From: Deltaproteobacteria bacterium
GTDB taxonomy: Bacteria; UBA10199; SBBF01
Direction of reading: 5' to 3'
Length of the DNA: 10,627 bases
Assembly (NCBI GenBank): GCA_016207765.1
Contig: JACQOY010000068.1
Coordinates: forward strand, 1-10,627
A program made the position numbers and the translations under genes. Positions within the stretch are counted from its first letter, which is position 1; every line of letters begins with the position of its first letter. Positions 847-10,540 of the stretch are shown one piece after another. The notes under the pieces were generated by a model. That model was given only the letters and a program-made list of their open reading frames with translations, made no database searches and was not told the DNA's origin.

Positions 847-1965
847 ATGCGTTATATCTGGCAGGAAAAGAGTTGGCCCCGTTTGACGTGGGATTCCAAA
901 CGCCTCATCGAACCGCTGGGGAAGGCCCGTCGCGCGCAGGGGGAGCTTATCGCCAGGGTCTCGGCGCTTGGCCTTGCCTCAAGGCTTGAGGCCCAAGCCG
1001 ATCTTGTCTCCGAAGAGGCGTTAAAAACGGCGGCCATTGAAGGAGAAAAACTCAATCCCCTGTCGGTTCGCTCATCCGTTGCAAGGCGCCTGGGGTTGCC
1101 CACAGCGGGTCTTCCTCCGACACAACGTGCCGTTGACGGCTTGGTGGAGGTGTTGCTCGATGCCACCGCAAATTACGACAAACCCCTTACGTGCAAGCGA
1201 ATCAAAGGATGGCAAGCGGCTTTATTTCCAACCGGTTATTCAGGTTTTCATCGCATCGCAGTGGGGAGGTGGCGAAAGCACGATCCAATGCAGGTGCTCT
1301 CCGGACCCATCGGGCGGGAGAAGATCCACTTTGAGGCCCCTCCTTCCAACCGGGTGGAAAAAGAGATGGGGAAATTTCTTGTCTGGTGGAATAAAAGCAT
1401 CAAGGAAAGTCCCGTGGAAGGCTTGATCCGGGGGGGAATGGCCCATTTTTATTTTGTCGCCATTCATCCTTTCGAGGACGGCAATGGCCGGATTGCGCGG
1501 GCATTGACCGACATGGCCCTGGCCCAGGACGAAAAAATGTCTGACCGATTTTACAGCTTGTCTTCCCAAATTATGACAGAGCGGGATGCCTATTATGCGG
1601 TTCTCGAAAAAACTTCGAAAGGGAATGGCGATATTACGGAGTGGCTTCTCTGGTTTGTTTCCTGTGTCGAACGAGCGATTGGCCGATCGGAAAAACTTCT
1701 TGAGAGAATACTGGGCAAGGTTAAATTTTGGCAGGACCACGCCGCGACGTCCATCAATGCCCATCAGCGCAAGGTAATCAACCGATTACTCGATGCCGGA
1801 GAGGGAGGTTTTGAAGGGGGCCTGACGACCCGCAAGTACGTTTCGCTTGCCAAAGTCAGCAGGGCCACCGCCTACCGTGAGATGGATGACCTGGTCGCCA
1901 AGAAAATACTGGTCTCAAACTCATCCGGCGGGCGGAGTACGAGTTATCGGTTGGTTTGGAAGTAA
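847..1965 (+). CDS. Fic family AMP-transferase (DUF4172-like N-terminus, C-terminal winged helix)
   Basis: Fic proteins usually transfer AMP from ATP to a hydroxyl side chain of a target protein, and some remove it. The 372-residue protein has, in order: an N-terminal region starting with a WQxxxWPxxxWD pattern typical of DUF4172; an inhibitory motif T-x-x-x-E-G at 61-66 (Glu65), which in class II Fic proteins blocks the ATP pocket; a flap region around 132-154; the catalytic signature HPFEDGNGRIAR at 207-218 (His207 acting as base); and a winged-helix-like segment at about 305-372 with a recognition-helix pattern SRATAYREMDDLVAKK. Length and layout match single-gene Fic proteins such as the 372-residue Shewanella SoFic, as remembered. 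No antitoxin gene adjoins it, which agrees with self-inhibition in cis. The winged helix might bind its own promoter. The ATG is chosen because the conserved N-terminus begins there; only a weak cagg precedes it. Confidence 0.93.
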   Translation: MRYIWQEKSWPRLTWDSKRLIEPLGKARRAQGELIARVSALGLASRLEAQADLVSEEALKTAAIEGEKLNPLSVRSSVARRLGLPTAGLPPTQRAVDGLVEVLLDATANYDKPLTCKRIKGWQAALFPTGYSGFHRIAVGRWRKHDPMQVLSGPIGREKIHFEAPPSNRVEKEMGKFLVWWNKSIKESPVEGLIRGGMAHFYFVAIHPFEDGNGRIARALTDMALAQDEKMSDRFYSLSSQIMTERDAYYAVLEKTSKGNGDITEWLLWFVSCVERAIGRSEKLLERILGKVKFWQDHAATSINAHQRKVINRLLDAGEGGFEGGLTTRKYVSLAKVSRATAYREMDDLVAKKILVSNSSGGRSTSYRLVWK

Positions 1966-1993
1966 CGGCGTTTTCTGGAGTTGTCTTTGGAGT

Positions 1994-2022
1994 TTGCAAA
2001 CCGCCGTTGTTTCCTTTATACT
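1994..2022 (+). promoter_or_regulatory. promoter for the lipoprotein gene, with palindrome over -35
   Basis: TTGCAA (1994-1999) and TATACT (2017-2022, 5 of 6) are 17 nt apart, which would start the transcript near 2029 and leave a leader of about 23 nt containing the Shine-Dalgarno sequence. The -35 box lies inside a perfect 10-bp palindrome gtttgcaaac (1992-2001). Flanking 7-bp arms aacggcg (1964-1970) and cgccgtt (2002-2008) could also pair over a 31-nt loop just after the Fic stop codon, followed by T-rich DNA, possibly ending the Fic transcript. Confidence 0.5.
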
Positions 2023-2051
2023 GCACGTTCAAGTCAAACAAAGGGGGTTCT

Positions 2052-3122
2052 GTGAAAAAAAGTTTTTTGGGATGTTTGGCGGTCGGTGTCGTTCTGATTA
2101 TGTCGGCTTGCAGTTCTTCGTCTTCGTCCGATGCGGGGAATAACGAGGCGGCATCAGGGCTCCAGTTTAATGCCGCCGGCGATTTTGACAGCTCGGCCAG
2201 CGCCGCCGCGGCCCTCATTCGGGGGGTAACCACGGGGGAGTGCGCCGACCTGGAAGATAATCCCACGATGGACGATCCCATACTGGAAGACGGGCTCGAT
2301 TGCGATGAAGACGGCGGTATTGTGGCCCATGTTACCCCCAGCCGATATGCCCTTGCCTTCAAGAGGGCGATCCTTGTGCCGGCGGATGTGGAGGGGGAAG
2401 ATGCCGAATCGGTCGATCTGATTGCCGATACGGGAACCCTTGCCTTGTCCGAGGTGGTCGATTTCACGGAGGACGACACCGAAGAGTCGGTCATCAGCAT
2501 CAGCTCCGCCGATCTGCCGGCAGGAACCTACAGCGGCGTCGAGGTGGAGCTGTACTATTTCCAGCTCACCTTTTCGGTGGCCGGTGTGGAGCAGAACGTC
2601 CGTGTCTACATGAGTGATGATGATTTTGAGGACGAAGGAAGCCTCGGTCATCACCAGGGGGATATCACCTTCATTAACGACAATGGCACCCCCGCCGATT
2701 ACTCGGATGATACTGAAGAGGGATGGGTTGATGACACTTGGCTTGCCGAGAATCTGACCGACACGCGCGGCGAGGCGCAAAACGGCGCGGGAGGGGTTGA
2801 TGACGAAACCGGCCATGACCGCGGTTTTTTTGGGAATGAGGAACTATGGGGGCAGGAAGAACTGGATCAGGGGGCCGGACAGGATATTTATGTTGAGACC
2901 CTGGATTTTGATGAACCGCTGGTGATCGATCCCGAAGTTCTTACCACCATTACCGCCACCTTCTCCGTGGCCGATACCTTCTACTACGAGGACTTCGCGC
3001 CGCAAAATACCGCTGACTTTCCCGGTTTCTATCCGGGAGATGGGGGGGAGGCGGGTGCGGATACCGAGGAATGGGCCCCTCTGATACCCACGGCGGAGAT
3101 CGAGACGACAACTTCCTCTTAG
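2052..3122 (+). CDS. acidic lipoprotein of unknown function
   Basis: A 356-residue predicted lipoprotein. The start is GTG at 2052, preceded by aaggggg with 4-nt spacing; the frame is open farther upstream but that part overlaps the Fic gene and lacks a signal sequence. The N-terminus is VKKSF, a hydrophobic stretch and the lipobox M-S-A-C, so Cys20 would be lipidated after signal-peptidase II cleavage. A run of six serines follows as a linker. The mature part is very rich in Asp and Glu, with two cysteines (64 and 84) and loops such as DCDEDGG and NDNGTPADYSDD that resemble calcium-binding loops. A central beta-rich portion (about 95-190) contains DLPAGTYSGVEVEL, a pattern seen in DUF4382-type surface lipoproteins; that similarity is from memory and weak. 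No enzyme motif is visible. It is likely a monocistronic gene anchored in the outer membrane or facing the periplasm. Confidence 0.9.
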   Translation: MKKSFLGCLAVGVVLIMSACSSSSSSDAGNNEAASGLQFNAAGDFDSSASAAAALIRGVTTGECADLEDNPTMDDPILEDGLDCDEDGGIVAHVTPSRYALAFKRAILVPADVEGEDAESVDLIADTGTLALSEVVDFTEDDTEESVISISSADLPAGTYSGVEVELYYFQLTFSVAGVEQNVRVYMSDDDFEDEGSLGHHQGDITFINDNGTPADYSDDTEEGWVDDTWLAENLTDTRGEAQNGAGGVDDETGHDRGFFGNEELWGQEELDQGAGQDIYVETLDFDEPLVIDPEVLTTITATFSVADTFYYEDFAPQNTADFPGFYPGDGGEAGADTEEWAPLIPTAEIETTTSS

Positions 3123-4621: not shown

Positions 4622-5458
4622 ATGAAAATTCTCATTGCCGGATGCGGGTATGTGGGGTCGGCTCTGGCTGTGCGTCTTCTGGAAGAGGGGCACGATGTCT
4701 GGGGGCTTAAACGGCATTCAGCCGGACTGCCTTTGGGGATAAAACCGGTTGTGGCCGATCTCGCCTGTGTCGATTCGCTCACATCTCTTCCGTCGAATCT
4801 CGACTCTGTTTTTTATCTCGCGTCGGCCGACGCGATTGATGATTCGGCTTACCGGGCGGCCTATGTCGACGGCATCAAAAACCTGGTGACCGCCCTAAAG
4901 GGGCAGACGATCAGGCGGTTTTTCTTTATTTCAAGCACCCGGGTTTATTCTCAGAAAAACGGGGAGTGGGTGGATGAGGCCACTGCGACCAATCCCGTAA
5001 CCTTTGCGGGACAACGCCTTTTGGAAGGGGAGCAGATTGCGCTTAATGCCCCATGGTCCGCCACGGTTGTGCGATTCGGGGGAATTTACGGTCCCGGAAG
5101 GGCCGGATTAATCGACCGGATTCGCGAGGGGAAAACGATTCTCAAGGAAGGACCGCCGGTTTACACAAATCGGATTCATGTCGACGATTGTGCCGCTGTT
5201 CTGCATCATCTCATGACCCTGAAGAGTCCCGCAGACCTCTATCTTGCCGTCGATTGCGAACCGGCTGAACAGAAGGAGGTCTATGGCTGGATTGCGGCCC
5301 GTCTTGGCGTTCCAGCCCCTGTTGTCGGCAAAAAAGAACCCACCGCCTACGAGTCTCGCGGTGAAAGCAATAAACGATGCCGAAATAACCGACTCCTTGC
5401 CACGGGCTATAAATTTCTTTACCCCACTTTTCGGGAGGGGTATGGGAGTCTGATATGA
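4622..5458 (+). CDS. NAD-dependent epimerase/dehydratase family protein, YeeZ-like
   Basis: An extended short-chain-dehydrogenase-like protein of 278 residues, of the YeeZ type; its substrate is unknown. The Rossmann dinucleotide motif GCGYVG is at 7-12. Further blocks are VFYLASA (63-69), the SSTRVYSQ strand (104-111) followed by GEWVDEATATNP, RFGGIYGPGR (151-160) and NRIHVDDCA (183-191). The C-terminus NKRC...YKFLYPTFREGY is typical of this subgroup. The classical YxxxK catalytic pair is absent: the corresponding region reads FAGQRLLEGE, as in E. coli YeeZ, so ordinary SDR chemistry is uncertain. ATG 4622 is chosen over an adjacent TTG at 4619; no Shine-Dalgarno sequence precedes it. The stop overlaps the pdxH start by ATGA, indicating translational coupling. 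Confidence 0.92.
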   Translation: MKILIAGCGYVGSALAVRLLEEGHDVWGLKRHSAGLPLGIKPVVADLACVDSLTSLPSNLDSVFYLASADAIDDSAYRAAYVDGIKNLVTALKGQTIRRFFFISSTRVYSQKNGEWVDEATATNPVTFAGQRLLEGEQIALNAPWSATVVRFGGIYGPGRAGLIDRIREGKTILKEGPPVYTNRIHVDDCAAVLHHLMTLKSPADLYLAVDCEPAEQKEVYGWIAARLGVPAPVVGKKEPTAYESRGESNKRCRNNRLLATGYKFLYPTFREGYGSLI

Positions 5459-6054
5459 ACAAGAAAGATCTTCTTCCCGATCCCTTTAAACAATTTCGAC
5501 TCTGGTATGACGAGGCCTGCGGCCACAAGGCGATAGAGCTTCCGTGGGCCTGTTGTCTTTCGACCATTAGCGAAGACGGTTTTCCGGACGGACGGATGAT
5601 GCTTTTGAAAGAAGCGGATGACCGGGGTTTTGTCCTCTACACGAATGCCCAATCCCCCAAGGGAAAATCACTGCTCGGCAACAAAAAGGGGGCGCTGACT
5701 TTTTACTGGGAAGATTTTCGGAGGCAAATCCGCGTTCAGGGGGAGGCGGAACAGGTTACCCCTGCCGAGGCCGACGCCTATTTCGTGTCCCGGCCCCGCG
5801 AATCGCAGATCGGCGCGTGGGTCTCTCAACAGAGCCAAAAGCTTGAGAGCCGGGAAGTCCTCGATAAAAAGTTCGGGGAATATTCAAAAAAATTTGAAGG
5901 AAAAGAGGTTTCCCGCCCCCCGTACTGGACCGGATTTCGCATCATTCCGGCAAAAATCGAATTCTGGCAGGAACGCGACAACCGGCTTCATGACCGGTTT
6001 TTGTACACGCGGACAAAATCGGGCGATTGGAAGATTGAAAGATTGTATCCGTAG
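5455..6054 (+). CDS. pdxH: pyridoxamine 5'-phosphate oxidase
   Basis: An FMN-dependent cytosolic oxidase that converts pyridoxine or pyridoxamine 5'-phosphate to pyridoxal 5'-phosphate, the last step of vitamin B6 synthesis or salvage. The 199 residues cover the whole family: GRMMLLKEADDRGFVLYTN (46-64), KGKSLL, FYWEDFRRQIRVQG (83-96), the substrate-binding RPRESQIGAWVSQQSQ (113-128), PYWTGFRIIPAKIEFWQ (156-172), RLHDR (177-181) and the C-terminal ERLYP. It lacks the roughly 20-residue N-terminal extension of the E. coli enzyme, which is common. W-T-G-F replaces the more usual W-G-G-F/Y. The ATG overlaps the upstream epimerase stop codon (ATGA). It ends with TAG exactly at the family's C-terminus, showing that TAG terminates normally here. 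Confidence 0.97.
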   Translation: MNKKDLLPDPFKQFRLWYDEACGHKAIELPWACCLSTISEDGFPDGRMMLLKEADDRGFVLYTNAQSPKGKSLLGNKKGALTFYWEDFRRQIRVQGEAEQVTPAEADAYFVSRPRESQIGAWVSQQSQKLESREVLDKKFGEYSKKFEGKEVSRPPYWTGFRIIPAKIEFWQERDNRLHDRFLYTRTKSGDWKIERLYP

Positions 6055-6711: not shown

Positions 6712-9405
6712 TTACCAATAAAGATACTCCTCCGCATAATCCTCCGCCAAATCGCGCAGGTCGCCGGCGCTCATGTCGCAAATGATCCTCTCCAGTTCGC
6801 GGATGACGGCGTCGAACCGGACGGGATCTGATTCAAAAACGGTCTGGAGGGTTTCGTCGTCGGTCAAAAGCCTTGAATCGCGGGCGAGGTGGCCGAAAAA
6901 ATAGAGACACCCGCGGCCATGACTTGTGTAGGCAACGCTTTCCGGGCGTCCGGCGTAGGCCGTTTTCATGACGATGGGCGAAGAGCCCGCCTGCTTGTAG
7001 AACAACAGGATGCTGAAAACAAAAAGGGTGGAAAAGGGGTCTTCGCTGTGGGCAATCTGCATTAGCGAAGAATAGACTTCGTCGTTCTTCAATCCAAAAA
7101 CATTTGCCGTGACATGGGCCAGCTCGTGCTGATGGACCGCCTCCAAAAGATTCCTGTAAAAATCTTCCTCTGTCTCCAACGGGCTGTTGAATAAAAGAGA
7201 GGGCAGGGGATGTTGCCTGGCCACCTTGTCAATCTTGGCCGGGTCGTTCTTCATGGCGGCCAGCTCGCGCGCCTTGCCTTCGATGGTATCAACCACGACC
7301 ACGGCCCCTTCGAACCGGTCGGCAGTGGGGTTTGGCGAAAAACCGCCAATGTCGGTATAAGAGGTGGCGATTCCAATGTTGGGCGGCAAGAGGGCTTGAA
7401 CGGACGGAAACTCGTTTAAGGCATTTCTGACATAAAAGGTCGCCACATCCTGGACGGGATACTGGTCGGCCACCTCGACCCCCTCGATTTTTACCGGCAT
7501 GGCAACCCACTGGAATGCGCCCGCCCCCGGCACCTCGTTTGGCACCAGCGCATAACCGGCCGGCAGAAAAAACTGCCGATTGAGATCGGCAATGGTCCGC
7601 CGAAGTTTGGTCTCGTCGCGGTCGATCAGCGCACGGATCAGATCCCAATTATAGGAGTACATCTCTTCGCAGTACCCATTGGGATCCATGATCCCTTTGG
7701 TTTGAGGGGCAGTCGTGGTCGATGATGGGTCAAGCAGAAGCCGGTTGATATCGCCGATGCGCCTGTCGAGCAGATAGTGAGGCGAGGCCCAATATTCGAA
7801 CTGATAATAGGGCAAATCTTCACGGTTCAGCCCGGTCGCCTCTTCCCACAACTCGCCGACCGTTTTGGCAACGGGGGCTGTTTCCCGCACATAGCAAAGG
7901 GCGAAGAAGTTGAAGAGGGCATCGACAATTTCGGGCGCTGTCTGCACCAGCCCGTGCCAGATCGGTTTGTCGTAGATTATTCCGGCCTGCTCTTCTCTGG
8001 AATTCCGAAGGAGGGTAAAGATAAGCTTTTTCAATTCGTCGGGGCCATAGGCTTGCTGGTAGTCGCGGAGCATTTGGCGCCCTTCATCGCTTGTGGCGAT
8101 TGTTTTCAAGAATGGGTAGGCTTCACAGAAAAAGCCGCCGCCGTTCGAATCAGTACTGGCACGTATAGTGATGAAGTCTTCGTGTCGGATTTCCTTCAGA
8201 ATTTCCGGATGAGAATAGAAATCCTCAAGGGTCATAAAAAACATGCCATGGCCATCCGGAGCAAAGGCAAAAGGGGTGAAGGTTTCATTATCTATTTTCT
8301 GAAAGCGGCGCTGGATGATCAAAAATTCTTCCCATGTGATGGGGACTTGGACATTGGTCTCATAAATGCGATCCATCAGTTCACCCTCTTCGGGTGACAT
8401 CTTATTATCCGCACCTCCCCCCACAAATAGTTGCTGGAATCGTCGGTCCGATGTCTTCGGGGAGAGGAGTTCCGCCAGAAAGGCCTCTGCGGCCTTTTGT
8501 TCTTCGTCAAGGAAAGTTTCGGTTGGATTTCCGAGAATGACCTCCCCCTCTTCATCAGTCAGATCGAGATTTGCTACCGGAATTTTTCCCAACTCGAGAA
8601 GATACGTGATAGCCTGTCCAAATTCATAAGACAATTTGTTATCAGATTTGTAGTAATAAAAAATTTTATCACTTAAGTCATCAAATGAGTCAACATCCAT
8701 TCTGTGCCAATCCACTCCATAACTTGTCAGCCTTTCTTTCAGCGCGGCATCAAATGGCCTTGCCCCCAGTGCGATGAGGCAGAGCCCGATTCGGAGCAAA
8801 AGTTCCTCTTGTTCCCGATTCTCCGCCGTCTTTGGCAAAGCGTTCTCCCATTCCATCAAAAAATCGGCCAATAGCCTCGTCGTGGGATCAAGCAGGGGGT
8901 TGAGGCCTGTCAGTAGATTGATGTAGTTATCTAACGGCATAAGGGAAATTCCCTCAACCTTTTCCGGCCGAAGGGTCGCGGCGACATAATAGGGGTCAAA
9001 AAAGGGCTCGTATTTTTGGAATAAGCTTTCGGGAACCAGATTTTTTATTTCATCCGGAACCGGCAGACGGTTTTTTGAGATGTCGGCAATCTGGCGGGGG
9101 AGGGCGTCATGGTTTGCAAACAGGCCCCCTCTGCCGGTCACCCGGTTGAAATGAAGATCGGCCTTCTGAAAAAAGCCGGTTGGATTCCGGATGAACTTAT
9201 CCTCCGTGTCGGGTGCGACATTGGGATTCACATCCAAAAGAAGCGTTTCCCCCCGGATACCCGAAAGTTTTACCTCGCAGATTTGGCCTGTGGATGGGTC
9301 GTAGAATGGTTGCGAAGGGCCGCCGTGATCCCACCCATCTTCCACCAAGTGAGAATAGTCCCAGAGGAGGGGAGAATAAGCTGATTTTGAAAGGTCAGAT
9401 GCCAT
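6712..9405 (-). CDS. large uncharacterised protein with HExxH zinc-protease motif
   Basis: I do not recognise the family. The 897-residue protein has no signal peptide or obvious membrane segment, so it is probably cytosolic. Near the C-terminus is HQHELAHVTANVFG, with HELAH at 760-764 (7128-7114), the pattern of zinc metallopeptidases: two His ligands and Glu761 as general base. A third ligand might be Glu776 (LKNDE) or, with gluzincin-like spacing, Glu822 in RPESVAYTSHGRG; this is not settled. The N-terminal two thirds is mostly helical in composition and rich in aromatic and acidic residues, without visible repeats. ATG 9405 is preferred to an upstream TTG (9423). There is no Shine-Dalgarno sequence, but a -10-like GATAAT lies 7 nt upstream. 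It is the first gene of a tight cluster with the DUF5678 and aspartic protease genes. That it is a gene is near certain; proteolysis is inferred from the motif. Confidence 0.88.
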   Translation of the reverse strand: MASDLSKSAYSPLLWDYSHLVEDGWDHGGPSQPFYDPSTGQICEVKLSGIRGETLLLDVNPNVAPDTEDKFIRNPTGFFQKADLHFNRVTGRGGLFANHDALPRQIADISKNRLPVPDEIKNLVPESLFQKYEPFFDPYYVAATLRPEKVEGISLMPLDNYINLLTGLNPLLDPTTRLLADFLMEWENALPKTAENREQEELLLRIGLCLIALGARPFDAALKERLTSYGVDWHRMDVDSFDDLSDKIFYYYKSDNKLSYEFGQAITYLLELGKIPVANLDLTDEEGEVILGNPTETFLDEEQKAAEAFLAELLSPKTSDRRFQQLFVGGGADNKMSPEEGELMDRIYETNVQVPITWEEFLIIQRRFQKIDNETFTPFAFAPDGHGMFFMTLEDFYSHPEILKEIRHEDFITIRASTDSNGGGFFCEAYPFLKTIATSDEGRQMLRDYQQAYGPDELKKLIFTLLRNSREEQAGIIYDKPIWHGLVQTAPEIVDALFNFFALCYVRETAPVAKTVGELWEEATGLNREDLPYYQFEYWASPHYLLDRRIGDINRLLLDPSSTTTAPQTKGIMDPNGYCEEMYSYNWDLIRALIDRDETKLRRTIADLNRQFFLPAGYALVPNEVPGAGAFQWVAMPVKIEGVEVADQYPVQDVATFYVRNALNEFPSVQALLPPNIGIATSYTDIGGFSPNPTADRFEGAVVVVDTIEGKARELAAMKNDPAKIDKVARQHPLPSLLFNSPLETEEDFYRNLLEAVHQHELAHVTANVFGLKNDEVYSSLMQIAHSEDPFSTLFVFSILLFYKQAGSSPIVMKTAYAGRPESVAYTSHGRGCLYFFGHLARDSRLLTDDETLQTVFESDPVRFDAVIRELERIICDMSAGDLRDLAEDYAEEYLYW

Positions 9406-9412
9406 CGTCAGT

Positions 9413-9418
9413 ATTATC
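9413..9418 (-). promoter_or_regulatory. -10-like box before the metalloprotease-like gene
   Basis: GATAAT on the minus strand (5 of 6 to TATAAT) ends 7 nt before ATG 9405. No good -35 box is seen 16-18 nt upstream. The 145 nt between this gene and the end of the next gene (9406-9550) are AT-rich, contain no supported gene, and are the only place for the cluster's promoter. Confidence 0.3.
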
Positions 9419-9550
9419 GGCAAAGGGTGGAAAAAGTTGCTAAAAATTGGTGAAAAATTTATTAATTTCCGTTTGATTAAAAAGATTAATAATTAAAGAT
9501 AGATAGGAATATAGACTGGGGCCAAATAAGGCACAGTGATGAAAACCCGA

Positions 9551-10540
9551 TTAATTTCCGAGAACGTAATTAAACACCAGCGGCGCCACGATGGAGGCGT
9601 CCGATTCGATGATAAACCGCGGCGTGTCGCTGTCCAGCTTTCCCCACGTTATTTTTTCGTTCGGGACCGCGCCGCTGTAGGAACCGTACGATGTGGTCGA
9701 ATCGCTGATCTGGCAGAAGTAGCTCCAGTAGGGGACTTTTTCCTTCTAGTCCTGGTTGATCAGCGGGACCACGCAAATGGGAAAATCGCCCGAAATCCCG
9801 CCGCCGATCTGGAAAAAGCCGATCGGCTTGGAGGAATGTTCCCGGTACCACTGGATTAAGTGGGCCATCTGTTCGAGGCCGCTTCGCACCACATTAAAAC
9901 GTCCGATATTCTTTTTTAGGATGTTGGCGACAAAGATGTTCCCCAGCGTGGAATCTTCCCACCCCGGGGTGTAGATGGGTATCTTTTTTTCATGGGCCGC
10001 CAAAACCCAGGAATTTTTCGGATCGATTTCGTGGTGTTTTGATATCTCGCCGGCCTCAACCAGCTGATACATGAATTCGAACGGGAAGAAGCTTTTTCCC
10101 TCCTTGTCGGCCTTCTGCCAGAGCTTTAGGACCTGTTTTTCGATCCGGCGCATTGCCTCCTCTTCAGGAATGCAGGTGTCGGTCACCCGGTTCATGCCCC
10201 GATCGCGAAGGCTCACCTCTGCTTCCGAAGTCAAATGACGATAGCCGGGAATCCGCTCGTAATGGTTGTGCGCCACCAGATTGAAAATATCCTCCTCCAG
10301 ATTGGCCCCGGTGGTGGTGATGGCGTGGATTTTGTTTTGCCGGATCATTTCGGCCAAAGAGATGCCGAGCTCACCGGTCGACATCGCTCCCGCCATTGTC
10401 AGCATCATCTTGCCCCCATTGTCCAAAAGACGAATCCATCCGTCGGCGGCTTCGACGACAACAGCTGAATTGAAATGTTTGAAATTGTTTTTGATGAAAT
10501 CGCGGATCGGCGTCTCTTTCGATTTGCTGTTTGTTTTCAT
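9551..10540 (-). CDS. deoxyhypusine synthase family protein, interrupted by an in-frame TAG
   Basis: Deoxyhypusine synthase transfers the aminobutyl group of spermidine using NAD. Bacteria lack the eukaryotic eIF5A target, and bacterial members are thought to act in polyamine synthesis or on unknown acceptors. From ATG 10540 the frame runs 264 residues to TAG (9746-9748), then continues without another stop or frameshift for 64 codons to TAA (9551-9553), 329 positions in all. Family blocks before the TAG include AGAMSTGELG (50-59), TTTGANLEED (75-84), PIYTPGWEDSTLGN and FFQIGGGISGDFPICVV. After it come YFCQISDSTTSYGSYSGAVPNE and WGK with Lys301, the expected catalytic lysine. Stopping at TAG would therefore remove the active-site lysine and the C-terminal strand. 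A pseudogene by one point mutation is the simplest view; readthrough or sequence error remain possible. Confidence 0.88.
9746..9748 (-). other. in-frame TAG inside the deoxyhypusine synthase gene
   Basis: The context on the minus strand is CAG GAC TAG AAG GAA, between N-Q-D and K-E-K-V-P-Y-W. As I remember them, homologues carry an ordinary residue, commonly Leu, after the NQD motif. TTG or AAG to TAG would be a single base change. Three other genes in the window (the lipoprotein, pdxH and DUF5678) end in TAG. Confidence 0.85.

Follow-up and report, generated by a model that had tools for sequence, protein, structure and literature searches.

A single in-frame TAG codon in an otherwise intact gene of the deoxyhypusine synthase family in a draft bacterial genome

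In the window, i.e., the whole stretch of 10,627 nucleotides that was analysed, a gene of the deoxyhypusine synthase (DHS) family was found to be interrupted by one in-frame TAG. In our judgement there is about an even chance that a single sense codon was changed to TAG very recently in this otherwise intact gene, with TAG acting as an ordinary stop; the base would then be real and not a consensus error. This reading is supported by the anatomy of the gene, the sense codons in its relatives, the selection on both sides of the TAG, and the normal use of TAG as a stop elsewhere in the genome. Against it stand the draft state of the genome (84% complete, its 1.89 Mb spread over 256 contigs) and the location of the gene at a contig end, where the consensus would often be weakest.

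Anatomy of the interrupted gene

The minus strand was translated from 10540 to 9551, which bore out the original prediction of 264 codons, a TAG, 64 further codons and a TAA (Table 1). The lesion is a single stop of the substitution type, with neither a frameshift nor a homopolymer indel.

Table 1. Coordinates of the interrupted DHS-family gene and of the adjoining contig end in the window.
Feature	Position	Strand	Evidence
DHS-family (PF01916) gene, codons 1-264, ATG start	9749..10540	-	PF01916 match, 3.9e-31
In-frame TAG, codon 265	9746..9748	-	Best 120 proteins: 118 Leu, 2 Met; stop in 0/80 aligned relatives
Remaining 64 codons, also DHS-family, with the WGK lysine at residue 301	9554..9745	-	NF001980 match of the tail alone, 9.5e-11; dN/dS ~0.05 relative to the sister genus
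TAA	9551..9553	-	Sister-genus orthologue stops at the same place
87 bases from the ATG of the gene to the contig end	10541..10627		Window is the whole of contig C2

The first 264 residues matched PF01916 on their own (108.9 bits), and the frame read across the stop scored 152 bits against a curated cut-off of 27, which places the gene in this family. The 64-codon tail by itself matched NCBIfam models of the DHS family, the best of them being NF001980, and the profile positions of this model ran on from the first part (7-253) to the tail (265-321). The match of both parts to the family, which had also been predicted, is not due to chance. A profile search of the whole genome returned a single PF01916 match, with '1 TAG' inside, which speaks against a second copy of the gene in the genome at its 84% completeness.

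The lysine of the WGK motif, at residue 301 when the TAG is counted as 265, is encoded solely 3' of the TAG, as originally stated, and the product of ordinary translation lacks this catalytic residue of an active enzyme. In the DHS family this lysine forms the covalent intermediate; regulatory DHS subunits are known from trypanosomatids. No ATG, GTG or TTG is present in frame from the TAG to codon 301, which speaks against the tail being made as a separate protein. Since the lysine lies after the TAG and the tail is without a usual start codon, the product should be inactive.

The name deoxyhypusine synthase used in the original prediction held at the level of the Pfam family, but none of the NCBIfam equivalog cut-offs was reached. 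TIGR00321 scored 104 bits against a cut-off of 304, outside the strict definition of a deoxyhypusine synthase, and the best NCBIfam model, NF001980 ('homospermidine biosynthesis protein'), scored 126 bits against a cut-off of 450 and thus did not assign the gene to the SpeY-like class. The eIF5A model (PF01287) matched in none of 46 genomes, the own genome included; the sensitivity of this search was imperfect, with three of 14 named control genomes positive (all archaea) and Haloferax missed. Because no eIF5A was found, deoxyhypusine synthase is used here as a family name only. A DHS-like homospermidine synthase, SpeY, has been described in bacteria (PMC9992855), and the caldomycin synthase CdmS has been described from Thermus (PMC10981699). 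As with SpeY and CdmS in these descriptions, the present gene belongs to a DHS-family protein in a bacterium in which no eIF5A was found, and the DHS lysine is conserved. Unlike the SpeY described there, it falls outside the NF001980 family at the score given above, and the present copy is interrupted. A SpeY-like role in polyamine metabolism may be suggested.

Selection and the site in relatives

The window differed from the best 120 homologues at two of the 151 columns that were conserved in at least 97.5% of them, namely at the stop itself and at column 250, where Ser replaces Ala; the same Ser is present in L022. Substitution rates were estimated as Nei-Gojobori counts with Jukes-Cantor correction using our own script. 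In comparison with the DNA of the sister genus, dN was 0.137 and dS 1.24 upstream of the TAG (dN/dS ~0.11), and dN was 0.045 and dS 0.90 downstream of it. Values for five more distant genomes were left out, as their synonymous sites were saturated or nearly so. Purifying selection is evident on both sides of the TAG and the gene is otherwise intact. The low dN/dS in the tail indicates that the tail was kept as protein for nearly all of the divergence from the sister genus, and the change to TAG is therefore either very young or not real.

Of 193 genomes searched for the gene, 99 matched at E <= 0.001; apart from that of the window itself, every listed row was free of stops inside the match. 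For the alignment by tblastn, 80 relatives were used, consisting of the 29 best genome matches (own genome excluded) and 51 named public loci; these two sets may overlap, and the remaining genome matches, most of them distant, were left out. All 80 span the site without a stop in the match and have the lysine. Gap placement moves the column in some rows of this set (to Gln, Glu and others), which makes its residue counts less exact. At the site, 27 of the 29 genome relatives had Leu (22), Met (3), Ile (1) or Asn (1); L006 and L020, for which the antisense frame had been taken, are not counted here. Among the best 120 of 8000 scored proteins, no stop occurred at the site, and the lysine of WGK was conserved in all 120.

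The closest of the proteins listed (P0001) was 90% identical and the next (P0002), a protein of the sister genus labelled Deltaproteobacteria, 83% identical, both with Leu at the site; the sequence of P0002 is that of the frame at L138:9707-10699. The codon in close relatives, which the original prediction had named as a check on the amber codon, was thus a sense codon. A stop common to orthologues, as expected of a functional in-frame stop, was found neither among the 80 aligned relatives nor among the 120 listed proteins. No near-identical protein of the same species was present among the best 120 of 8000 scored, and a search of the genus returned the own genome as the single representative of both genus and species. 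The genes pdxH, corA and cutA are common to the window and the sister genus, where they lie beside an intact copy of the gene; in the window they are interspersed with a 903-codon frame and an epimerase-like gene.

Reading of TAG in the genome

Stop codon usage was sampled in 219,881 bases (the window and 20 further stretches), corresponding to 11.6% of the genome. The 163 ab initio gene calls in this sample ended in TGA (62), TAA (61) and TAG (40, with the present gene counted). Coding-like sequence continued in frame after the stop in 17 of the 163 calls (TAG 5, TGA 4, TAA 8). For 16 of these an ATG followed 0-20 codons on, as for a next gene, and their reading as separate genes is based on this ATG and not on a family search; the one exception without an ATG was the present gene. 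In the TAG subset, an ATG followed 0-11 codons on in four of five calls, the fifth being the present gene, which was thus the only case left in this sample by the search for in-frame TAG codons that had been proposed.

The ends of frames were also compared in the 31 best pairs between the own genome and the sister genus, in which 21 of the own frames ended within two codons of the end of the homologue. Six own frames ended in TAG: four did so within two codons of the homologue's end, a fifth within four, and the sixth (in L129) lies in near-identical DNA that looks non-coding, as every frame contains stops and an insertion is present, and is probably not a gene. An in-frame stop was found in three of the 31 pairs, i.e., in the present gene, in queG and in one antisense match (L126). 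The sister-genus version of the DHS-family gene itself terminates in TAG, as does pdxH (5455-6054) in the window, the latter in accordance with the original prediction.

Searches for the pyrrolysine synthetase PylS gave scores over the cut-off in none of 60 genomes, among them the own genome (84% complete) and two genomes of the same family, and in one of 14 control genomes. The best score in the own genome was 18.2 bits against a cut-off of 178. Weak matches at E <= 0.001 occurred in 56 of the 60 genomes, all under the cut-off, and probably represent other class II synthetases. Pyrrolysine was rejected as improbable on these results. No CUA anticodon was present among 22 tRNAs, three more that are truncated at contig ends and a tRNA-like element, and a search at a loose threshold yielded five extra weak matches and no suppressor tRNA. 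The pylS gene and suppressor tRNA that the original prediction had suggested looking for were thus not recovered. The tRNAs for Lys, Arg, Trp, Tyr, Ile and Asn were likewise not recovered, and the tRNA set is incomplete.

An RF1-like gene matched the prfA model with 383.6 bits against a cut-off of 423; it runs off a contig end after positions 6-266 of 361, which accounts for the score under the cut-off. A second release-factor frame, which is complete, scored 272 bits, and we read the two frames as RF1 and RF2, respectively. Genome-wide reassignment of amber, against which the original prediction had argued from pdxH, was rejected on the stop usage in this sample and the RF1-like gene. Recoding is unlikely, the weak points of this conclusion being the incomplete genome and the incomplete tRNA set, owing to which the absence of suppressor or pyrrolysine components is weak evidence.

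Explanations of the TAG

If the codon was mutated, a sense codon would have become TAG very recently as a strain-level nonsense mutation. Translation would then end after 264 residues, ahead of the catalytic lysine, and the truncated product should be inactive, making this a fresh null allele.

There is a substantial chance, short of even, that the TAG instead reflects one wrong base in the draft consensus and that the gene of the organism is intact. The assembly consists of 256 contigs and 87 bases separate the ATG from the end of its contig, the gene is intact save for one codon, and with only one of 17 coding-followed calls lacking an ATG the lesion is isolated, as expected of an error. An isolated lesion fits a fresh mutation equally well, however, and its substitution type, free of any homopolymer indel, speaks against an error. 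As there is only one genome for the genus, real mutation and error are not told apart; the weights that we give them are a matter of judgement, and no computation separates them.

Translation may also read through the TAG at some rate, by a suppressor tRNA, near-cognate misreading or pyrrolysine, and so give the full-length enzyme, which we consider improbable. The strong purifying selection on the tail could be taken in its favour; the period preceding the change, however, accounts for this selection. DHS is not one of the methylamine methyltransferases in which pyrrolysine use is known. One survey describes in-frame stops as widespread among bacterial genes of low dN/dS; it argues for frequent read-through of such stops, and its authors assume that functional recoding is lacking in the vast majority of them (Belinky et al., 2021; PMC7918605). 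The present gene resembles the cases described there in that its one in-frame stop is flanked on either side by conserved coding sequence of low dN/dS. In the Paenibacillus case of that survey, however, TAG is found at one position in several genomes, whereas here it is seen in a single genome and is absent from all 80 relatives that were aligned. Some Deltaproteobacteria are described as having pyrrolysine systems (PMC8318568), and the present case is like them in its in-frame TAG and in the Deltaproteobacteria label of the sister genome. It is unlike those described in that PylS did not exceed the cut-off and the aligned relatives have no stop at the site. The incomplete tRNA set of a genome that is 84% complete leaves some room for read-through; against it are the PylS result in 60 genomes, the tRNAs recovered, none with CUA, and the RF1-like gene. 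Of the three options in the original prediction, recent loss and sequencing error both fit, whereas amber read as an amino acid was unsupported by the relatives, PylS, tRNAs, RF1-like gene and normal TAG stops.

It is more doubtful still that the TAG is genuine and has become fixed in the species, with low-rate read-through throttling a polyamine enzyme as a very young, species-specific amber switch located ahead of the catalytic lysine. That the 264-residue product functions as a non-catalytic partner, in the manner of the regulatory DHS subunits that exist elsewhere (PDB 6dft_B), is barely credible, given a single PF01916 match and no catalytic partner seen in the assembly (84% complete), a tail without relaxation and no stop in the 80 aligned relatives.

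Further observations on the assembly

Three other frames of the window were noted. The 903-codon frame (6712-9423, minus strand) had no Pfam or NCBIfam match, a 388-codon frame (1956-3122, plus strand) appears lipoprotein-like by eye and had no Pfam match, and 847-1965 (plus strand) encodes a Fic/DOC-family protein that begins with DUF4172. A search for repeats in the window found nothing bearing on the DHS-family gene.

In queG (epoxyqueuosine reductase) the frame changes at a run of nine T, both in the own genome (L121, contig C49, 6133-7037, minus strand) and in the sister genus (L152, G001 contig C15, 608-1551, minus strand). The tract and the break are identical in the two genera, the downstream frame is conserved and the upstream part is 71% identical; that the break is common to two genera argues against a chance error. 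Runs of nine T are described as prone to transcriptional slippage in bacteria (PMC1088944). In G004 a long T run occupies the same position of queG inside one open frame.

A short palindromic repeat beginning TAGGGGCG was found at L122:504, L118:17554, L119:16417, L118:6221, L120:14151 and L137:2563, and also in the sister genus (L139:2594). It starts at, and provides, the TAG stop in three sampled genes.

The tRNA-like element at L110:1501-1568 (contig C204) has good acceptor and T arms, but its D arm and anticodon stem are degenerate. It was called Leu(taa) by ARAGORN and scored 25 bits against an Rfam gathering score of 29, and is possibly a decayed tRNA copy. The end of L111 (C21) and the start of L112 (C244) carry overlapping parts of apparently the same tRNA (anticodon GCC), likely an assembly break. 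The DNA at L124:110-1490 (contig C180) and L129:1681-2168 (contig C51) is near-identical to L140 (G001 contig C2) across the genera; the frames in it are ~99% identical over 219 and 163 aligned residues, most other pairs being far more different, and no Rfam rRNA match was found in this DNA. It is either recent mobile DNA or contamination common to the two drafts.

Implications

The DHS-like subgroup to which the gene belongs is common in bacteria; it occurs without eIF5A in those genomes that were searched and lies under every curated function cut-off. Neither a mutation nor an error at this codon alters existing knowledge of amber codons. If the mutation is real, a gene loss would have been caught before further decay; if the TAG is an error, the case would be a warning against inferring recoding from single stops in draft genomes.
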